Below, piece after piece: positions 37,154-38,536 of a stretch of 64,000 nucleotides of DNA (position 1 is the first letter of the stretch; the number at the start of each line of letters is the position of its first letter). The translations under genes and the position numbers were made by a program. Location: positions 1,302,001-1,366,000 of the forward strand of contig NZ_CP033917.1 of NCBI RefSeq assembly GCF_003815655.1. Direction: 5' to 3'. Source of the stretch: Chryseobacterium sp. G0201. Its GTDB lineage: Bacteria > Bacteroidota > Bacteroidia > Flavobacteriales > Weeksellaceae. The notes beneath the pieces are model-generated. The model was not told the origin of the DNA, did no database searches, and worked only from the letters and a program-made list of their open reading frames with translations.

Positions 37154-38356
37154 TTAATTGATTACTTCGATTTGATTTCTCAATAAATCTTCGAATTCAT
37201 CTCTTTTTCTGATTAAGTGAGCTTTTCCGTCTAAGAAAAGAACCTCAGCAGGTTTTAGTCTTGAATTAAAGTTTGAGCTCATTTCAAAACCGTAAGCTCC
37301 TGCATTATGGAAAGCTAAAATATCACCTTCTCTTACTTCATTCAGTTTTCTGTCCCAAGCGAAAGTATCTGTTTCACAAATATTTCCAACTACGGTATAA
37401 ATTCTTTCCGCTCCTTTTGGATTAGATAAATTTTCAATCTGATGATAAGAATCGTAGAACATTGGGCGGATCAAATGATTAAATCCAGAATTAACTCCAA
37501 CAAAAACAGTCGCTGTTGTCTGCTTGATCACATTAGCTTTTACTAAAAGATATCCGCTTTTTCCAACCAAGAATTTTCCTGGCTCAAACCATAATTCGAA
37601 TTTTTTTCCTGTAGATTTTGAGAACTCAGCGATTACTTTTTCTACTTTTTTACCTAACGTTTTCACATCAGTTTCCTCTTCACTGTCTTGGTAAGGAATT
37701 TTAAAACCGCTTCCCATATCCAGATATTTCAGATTCGGGAAATGCTCAGAAAGTTCCAGCATAATATCTAAAGCCTGTAAGAAAACGTCAGGATCTTTGA
37801 TCTCGCTTCCTGTATGCATGTGAAGACCTTCAACATTCAGATTTGTGCTTTTCATCACTCTTTCGATGTGGCGAACCTGATGAATAGAAATCCCGAATTT
37901 ACTGTCGATGTGACCCGTTGAGATTTTATAGTTTCCACCTGCAAAAATATGCGGGTTGATTCTTACAAGAATTGGATATGTATTTCCGTATTTGTTACCG
38001 AACTGCTCAAGAATAGAGATGTTATCGATATTAATATGTACTCCATGTGTCATTGCTTCCTCGATCTCGGCTAAATCGACACAGTTTGGGGTAAATAATA
38101 TTTTTTCTTTAGAAAATCCGGCTTTTAAACCTAATTTCACTTCATTAATTGATACACAATCCAAAGAAGCCCCCAAGTTCTTGACATACTTAAGAATGTT
38201 GATATTTGTCAACGCCTTCGCTGCATAGAAGAACCTTGTGTGCTTTAAAAAAGAAGATGTAAGCTTTTCGTATTGAATTTTAATCGATTCTGCATCGTAA
38301 ACGTACACCGGCGTGCCAAACTCATTGGCAATCTTTAATAATTCTTTTGAATTCAT
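37154..38356 (-). CDS. lysA: Diaminopimelate decarboxylase
   Basis: The last step of lysine synthesis, meso-DAP to L-lysine, PLP-dependent. 400 residues, fold type III. Landmarks: PLP Lys in FFYAAKALTN (near residue 45), HMHTGSEI, the glycine loop 'DMGSGFKIPY', 'FEPGKFLVGKSGYLL', 'GNICETDTFAWDRKL' (in place of the common CESGD) and NAGAYGFEM with the C-terminal Tyr. Transcription must pass the attenuator hairpin (38373-38407) that ends 16 nt before the start codon. A 23-codon Lys-rich ORF precedes that hairpin. Own terminator downstream. Confidence 0.96.
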   Translation of the reverse strand: MNSKELLKIANEFGTPVYVYDAESIKIQYEKLTSSFLKHTRFFYAAKALTNINILKYVKNLGASLDCVSINEVKLGLKAGFSKEKILFTPNCVDLAEIEEAMTHGVHINIDNISILEQFGNKYGNTYPILVRINPHIFAGGNYKISTGHIDSKFGISIHQVRHIERVMKSTNLNVEGLHMHTGSEIKDPDVFLQALDIMLELSEHFPNLKYLDMGSGFKIPYQDSEEETDVKTLGKKVEKVIAEFSKSTGKKFELWFEPGKFLVGKSGYLLVKANVIKQTTATVFVGVNSGFNHLIRPMFYDSYHQIENLSNPKGAERIYTVVGNICETDTFAWDRKLNEVREGDILAFHNAGAYGFEMSSNFNSRLKPAEVLFLDGKAHLIRKRDEFEDLLRNQIEVIN

Positions 38357-38372
38357 AATTTGATTTTAACAT

Positions 38373-38407
38373 AAAAAAAGGCAGATTCTTCGGAAAAAGA
38401 GTCTGCC
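38373..38407 (-). terminator. Intrinsic terminator just before lysA (attenuator)
   Basis: Minus-strand hairpin GGCAGACTCTT...AAGAATCTGCC with a short loop and a following TTTTTTTAT, ending 16 nt upstream of the lysA ATG. There is no space for a promoter between it and lysA, so lysA expression needs readthrough. Six bases of its left arm can pair with GTCTTGC (38430-38424) next to the leader ORF stop codon, a possible antiterminator. Confidence 0.85.
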
Positions 38408-38438
38408 ACATTAATTATTTTTATGCAAGACAACTCAT

Positions 38439-38510
38439 TTAAATATTCCAAACCTTAGAGAACTTTACAGTTCCCTTTTTTCCAGTTTTATGTTGTTTAA
38501 AATTTTGCAT
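38439..38510 (-). CDS. Lysine-rich leader ORF of lysA (putative leader peptide)
   Basis: A 72-nt frame encoding 23 residues, start ATG 38510, stop TAA 38441-38439. Six of the 23 codons are Lys (positions 5, 8, 11, 12, 16, 19) and the single Trp is at 21. A TACTTTTG -7-like box lies at 38536-38529, giving a leader of roughly 12 nt before the ATG. The frame contains a self-complementary stretch (38458-38475). It is followed after 31 nt by the terminator in front of lysA. The arrangement is that of a ribosome-mediated attenuator responding to lysine, but translation of the frame is not proven. Confidence 0.55.
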   Translation of the reverse strand: MQNFKQHKTGKKGTVKFSKVWNI

Positions 38511-38528
38511 TGCTTTTTTATTCTCTTG

Positions 38529-38536
38529 CAAAAGTA
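38529..38536 (-). promoter_or_regulatory. Candidate -7 box of the lysA leader transcript
   Basis: TACTTTTG on the minus strand (38536-38529) matches the TAnnTTTG -7 consensus. No good -33 TTTG is seen at the usual distance. If used, the leader transcript runs about 150 nt to the end of the lysA terminator. Confidence 0.5.

Follow-up and report, generated by a model that had tools for sequence, protein, structure and literature searches.

A candidate lysine-codon leader-peptide attenuator upstream of lysA in Chryseobacterium and other Weeksellaceae

How is lysA expressed when a terminator-like hairpin stands between its predicted promoter and its start codon? The gene, named by likeness as encoding diaminopimelate decarboxylase (a 400-aa ORF), lies at positions 37154–38356 on the minus strand of the window, by which we mean the whole 64,000 nt stretch of Chryseobacterium sp. 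G0201 DNA that was analysed. LysA carries out the last step of lysine synthesis, and 80 records titled Chryseobacterium or Weeksellaceae contain loci with 95–99% identity to the lysA in the window. An earlier note on this DNA proposed that a short ORF ahead of lysA acts as a lysine leader-peptide attenuator. We found support for that reading, since seven genera keep the ORF with its Lys codons, the terminator, and a segment after the stop codon that is complementary to the terminator. What comparison of the leaders establishes is the ORF and the constraint on its coding, a terminator-like hairpin, and a post-stop segment with its position and its complementarity. Judged from these sequences, the lysA leader is very probably a ribosome-mediated transcription attenuator with lysine specificity.

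Layout of the leader and constraint on its reading frame

The minus strand holds all parts of the putative attenuator, in the order of a gene that reads from its sequence as exonuclease-like, a predicted −7 promoter box, a 23-codon ORF, a post-stop segment, a predicted terminator and lysA. The box, TACTTTTG (38529–38536), had been described as −7-like, and we take it to be of the TAnnTTTG type. The motif is more frequent here than chance would give: TAnnTTTG occurs within 60 nt upstream of 101 of 102 leader ORFs, compared with 89 of 1600 random 60-nt windows. The leader ORF, MQNFKQHKTGKKGTVKFSKVWNI (38439–38510, ATG to TAA), carries a coding signature. It does have the 23 codons and six Lys codons ascribed to it, the latter at 38498–38496, 38489–38487, 38480–38478, 38477–38475, 38465–38463 and 38456–38454. 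Within the ORF, a hairpin (GGGAACU-GUAA-AGUUCUC, 38458–38475) is predicted at −7.1 kcal/mol with a z-score of −4.5. It is also present in the consensus fold of 52 leaders, and is possibly a site at which polymerase pauses.

The predicted intrinsic terminator (38373–38407) is made up of the stem GGCAGACTCTT/AAGAATCTGCC (38407–38397 with 38390–38380, one C.A mismatch) and a run of seven T residues (38379–38373). As had been observed before, this T7 ends 16 nt ahead of the lysA ATG (38356), a distance that leaves no room in the window for a promoter after the terminator. The stem has a predicted energy of −13.8 kcal/mol (z −4.4, with 0 of 200 shuffles as stable), and a terminator-like hairpin is conserved among the lysA leaders compared. 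Our pattern scanner reported neither the leader promoter nor the terminator, because it searches for sigma-70 boxes alone and applies a terminator rule without mismatches.

The leader ORF evolves as coding sequence. All 67 leader ORFs, from the window and the leader-bearing named lysA loci, have 23 codons, and among 45 distinct ORFs (drawn from 64 leaders with a TAA stop) four lysines (5, 11, 12 and 19) never vary, and neither do G10, W21 and N22. Of 57 distinct ORFs, 44 have Lys at position 16 and 13 have another residue there (Arg in those seen), a variation that counts against an attenuator. For the window's leader type, 57 distinct ORFs drawn from three genera give an in-frame pN/pS of 0.278 versus 1.524 and 1.392 in the other frames, and a diverged leader type gives 0.53 in frame versus 0.96 and 1.04 (10 distinct ORFs). 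Lys codons 12, 16 and 19 (38454–38477 in the window) are AAG in all but two cases, although neighbouring genes strongly favour AAA (138 AAA against 20 AAG codons in four genes of the window), and in the consensus fold at least one base of these three codons lies in stems. The preference for AAG points to a constraint at the RNA level besides coding, owing in part to the RNA stem and perhaps to wobble decoding as well.

The same genome carries four other candidate leaders. A His-rich one, MKPNFLTLHHYYHHLC (4 His in 16 residues; 4132725–4132775, L255), precedes hisG, and its terminator arm is complementary to TAGACGG, the segment around the leader stop codon. Two tandem Ile/Val-rich leaders, MNFTNQKNIIVISIINTIVIQ and MYQLTTIIIVIIIPLRL (3185677–3185742 and 3185827–3185880, L259; Ile/Val 9 of 21 and 7 of 17), each with its own terminator, precede the ilv operon, and a Thr-rich leader, MKCTRNISDISTPKFSTSEVSSVSTATTTTP (8 Thr in 31; 655286–655381, L257), precedes a gene that seems to be a fusion of aspartokinase and homoserine dehydrogenase. 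The His and Ile/Val leaders are laid out like the lysA leader: their terminators are clear, and a complementary segment lies at the stop codon or close to it. They differ in their codons and, as far as our leader model R1 shows, are unrelated to it in sequence. Both features are weak for the Thr leader, which matches the Lys leader layout less clearly. Lys content is 0–1 in the His and Ile/Val leaders and 0–2 across all four, and thus richness in Lys is no general trait of leaders here. This contrast, together with the frame-specific pN/pS, rules out a chance ORF in A-rich DNA.

Could the lysines instead matter as side chains, with a GKK..FSK-like core in the nascent peptide stalling the ribosome on free lysine or another ligand? 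The recurrence of this core across genera would fit such an arrest, as would G10, W21 and N22, which are unpaired in the consensus fold as well as invariant. We nevertheless consider it improbable. W21–N22 is missing from the other leader types, F17 and S18 sit in the conserved hairpin, which can explain their conservation, and the genome's other leaders (His, Ile/Val and Thr) resemble plain codon-run leaders. As for residues fixed near a stall site, VWN is constant within one leader type and missing from the others, whereas the GKK..FSK-like core is kept. That W21 and N22 match the Lys codons in invariance within one type is a point against the attenuator.

Pairing between the post-stop segment and the terminator arm

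The earlier note had also described a competing 6-bp pairing after the stop codon. That pairing is real but was drawn too small, the predicted antiterminator being larger (38436–38423 with 38411–38399). Its 5′ strand (38423–38436) begins 2 nt after the leader stop codon and its 3′ strand (38399–38411) overlaps the terminator 5′ arm, with 38436–38429 and 38426–38423 pairing with 38411–38404 and 38402–38399. The resulting hairpin is predicted at −7.4 kcal/mol, and 18 of 200 shuffles fold equally well or better, so that it is not significant from the window alone.

Comparison was made among representatives (30, 22 and 17 of the 102 leaders), which were chosen by hand to include at least one per leader type. 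Of 30 representatives, 28 have a pairing that starts 0–2 nt past the stop codon, but only 10 reach p<0.05 against shuffled spacers, with p=0.056 for the window itself. All 17 representatives so analysed show pairing between the terminator 5′ arm and the first 12 nt past the stop codon, with energies from −5.2 to −9.7 kcal/mol; the remaining spacer gives +3.3 to −4.9 kcal/mol against the same arm. Within the clade, the antiterminator pairing is kept in 89.9% of cells, compared with 32.6–53.5% in slid versions. Compensatory covariation of the antiterminator shows no excess within this clade, and RNAalifold does not select the pairing; both points weigh against the attenuator. Because the within-clade alignment gave no covariation, we ran a swap test between leader types, in which own pairs of post-stop segment and arm beat those of swapped lineages (permutation p=0.0086, n=17; p=0.038 with about one representative per leader type, n=9). 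An alignment of lysA leaders, suggested at the outset as a check, thus bears out the conserved ORF and Lys codons, and shows covariation between leader types but not within the clade. As read from these alignments, the post-stop covariation is lineage-matched change between leader types, not a set of compensatory pairs within the clade.

Two further pairings were considered. In the consensus fold, the start-codon region (38507–38513) may pair with 38425–38431, and such a pairing may hide the antiterminator when the leader is not translated, leaving the switch off; it has p<0.05 in 4 of 22 representatives and p=0.26 in the window. For the diverged leader type, a candidate outer stem joining codons 5–7 to the last codons is paired in 78 of 112 cells from 14 ORFs, with slid versions giving 35 to 49 of 112, and 34 of 98. 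We do not rely on the outer stem because its rows are close relatives.

Distribution of the leader and the search for riboswitches

Of 173 genomes of the genus, 140 carry the leader DNA at full length and 83–100% identity, among them that of the window, and 33 lack such a match. Lack of conservation among relatives had been named beforehand as evidence against the attenuator; conservation was found instead, both in these genomes and across the seven genera described below. Among 80 named lysA loci, all from Chryseobacterium except one Weeksellaceae MAG, 66 carry the leader and 14 of Chryseobacterium type are leaderless (L057, L060, L061, L066, L070, L081, L087, L091, L093 and L106–L110). The same gene lies upstream in 66/66 leader-bearing and 14/14 leaderless loci, and the latter have a plain TAnnTTTG box near the lysA start (read by eye), from which it follows that the leader is gained or lost as a unit.

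In the family, lysA was found in 132 of 148 sampled genomes and 24 of 33 genera, and its upstream region was read in at least one genome of 23 of these 24 (g15 was left out). Lys-rich leaders precede lysA in seven genera, namely g1 (the window's own), g9 (20/20 genomes), g7 (2/2), g24 (2/2), g14 (1/1), g27 (1/1) and g26 (14/20), and we found none in the other 16 genera read. The leader is thus missing from 6 of 20 g26 genomes as well as from 14 of the 80 named loci, and this counts against an attenuator. At one locus of genus g22 (L173), a terminator-like GCAGGCTC hairpin precedes lysA without a Lys-rich ORF, and is possibly a decayed leader. In other families of the order, no such leader was found in 40 lysA upstream regions read, of 103 genomes with a lysA match, as judged by the terminator rule and reading by eye.

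Between genera, the leader peptides diverge strongly at both ends, as in MKVQKSIKKGASKGKKFFSKANSVD, MSAVVTFKKVSSKGKKHFFKGISVT and MKTVYASKKGMKKGSKKFSKKPV (for the diverged genera, peptide prefixes were picked by hand from the upstream regions). Across the seven genera they retain 4–9 Lys and a core of approximately GKK..FSK, and each is followed by a terminator-like hairpin. In the family genomes, all 34 matches to R1 with E<0.01 lie directly before lysA. Seven weaker R1 matches, examined by eye in search of a second lysine leader elsewhere in the family, were ordinary terminators. The model detects the window's leader type; the leaders of g24 and g26 escaped it, as did one of the two in g7, and a diverged second leader may have done so too.

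This pattern bears on whether the ORF encodes a small protein with its own job, the hairpin being the end of its mRNA and lysA living on readthrough. The strong conservation of the peptide within the clade is what such a protein would lead one to expect, yet between genera the peptide ends change beyond recognition while the Lys richness, the terminator and the post-stop complementarity persist, and the 34 of 34 strong matches before lysA likewise speak against it. We regard this explanation as highly improbable.

Lysine control by a riboswitch is the other obvious expectation at this locus. A covariance-model search for the L-box lysine riboswitch (RF00168) found it in 0 of 148 family genomes, including that of the window, with the search control positive in 4 of 14 genomes; this agrees with the suggestion that a lysine-codon leader would be a solution other than the L-box. 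A cmscan of the window placed no Rfam family at gathering score in the leader, a T-box included. At that score the window yielded a SAM riboswitch (RF00162, 1920–2026, minus strand, 77.2 bits) and two tRNAs only. A known riboswitch is ruled out by these searches. There is only the slightest chance that an undescribed RNA-only cis element senses lysine with the ORF incidental, as the high nucleotide conservation, third positions included (AAG, GTT), and the stable fold (z −3.0) could suggest, given the frame-specific pN/pS, the lack of an Rfam family at gathering score, and nucleotides that change heavily between genera while the Lys-rich frame stays.

Proposed switch and comparison with known systems

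The transcription start, translation, stalling, the switch itself and its response to lysine are what we infer from these features. When lysyl-tRNA is scarce, ribosomes would stall at the Lys codons of the 23-codon ORF, which would leave the post-stop antiterminator free and allow RNA polymerase to pass the predicted terminator into lysA. When lysine is plentiful, the ribosome would translate as far as the stop codon and sit over the antiterminator, so that the terminator could fold, 16 nt ahead of lysA, and transcription would end. Assuming a usual ribosome footprint, a ribosome at the stop codon would mask the antiterminator and one at the last Lys codon would not. The hairpin inside the ORF may pause polymerase, letting the ribosome catch up.

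A more elaborate possibility, which we think unlikely, is that a lineage without detectable lysine riboswitches evolved a lysine sensor out of the translating ribosome, with the GKK..FSK peptide and the in-ORF hairpin jointly setting the stall. The leader would then combine a lysine-responsive arrest peptide with an attenuator, and the two would come and go together in front of lysA.

Leader-peptide regulation is little studied in this phylum, and the locus offers two useful settings. Species with and without the entire leader, but with an unchanged gene and neighbour, can be compared as nature supplies them, and a single genome with five candidate leaders (one each for Lys, His and Thr, and two for Ile/Val) would allow codon-specific predictions to be set side by side.

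Ribosome-mediated leader-peptide attenuators are known for amino-acid operons, including trp, his, thr, phe, ilv and leu. Like these classical systems, the lysA leader has a short ORF rich in the codon of its own pathway (six Lys in 23 codons, with an in-frame pN/pS of 0.28, and 4–9 Lys in every leader type listed), a predicted terminator before the first gene, and a predicted antiterminator that excludes the terminator and would be masked once a ribosome reaches the stop codon. The leader is unlike them in its putative lysine specificity, the hairpin inside the ORF, an antiterminator starting 0–2 nt after the stop codon, and its occurrence in Weeksellaceae-type Bacteroidota.

We found no lysine leader-peptide attenuator in the open-access literature. 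A survey of attenuation by Lopatovskaya et al. from 2010 might list one. That survey is cited in the available part of PMC4833913. For Actinobacteria, the accessible portion of PMC1262725 assigns lysine to riboswitch control, and attenuators to histidine, threonine and phenylalanine. Closer to the present lineage, what was available of PMC9723704 describes clues to leader-peptide attenuation before amino-acid operons of Flavobacterium psychrophilum, with pheA and hisG among the conserved 5′ elements; these candidates come from the same bacterial class, and lysine is absent from the main text. Leader-like short ORFs are mentioned in Bacteroides in the section of PMC7366714 that was at hand. SEP5 of Sinorhizobium meliloti has also been proposed as a leader peptide; it contains six Thr codons and three for Lys, and lies ahead of a gene of the aspartate pathway (PMC10117765, in part). 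SEP5 differs from the lysA leader in its mostly threonine codons and in the gene that it precedes, and the part of that article available describes no attenuator structure for it.

The L-box resembles the putative lysA attenuator in controlling lysine genes by premature termination; it differs in that the lysA leader contains a coding ORF, and the L-box was not found in the 148 family genomes. If the proposal is true, a lysine-codon attenuator fills a gap, with the L-box being otherwise the form of RNA-level lysine control in the portions of the literature examined. We conclude that reading the lysA leader as a classical attenuator with a new amino-acid specificity is well supported by comparison of the sequences. 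What is new is the amino-acid specificity and the lineage, and the mechanism is one already known.
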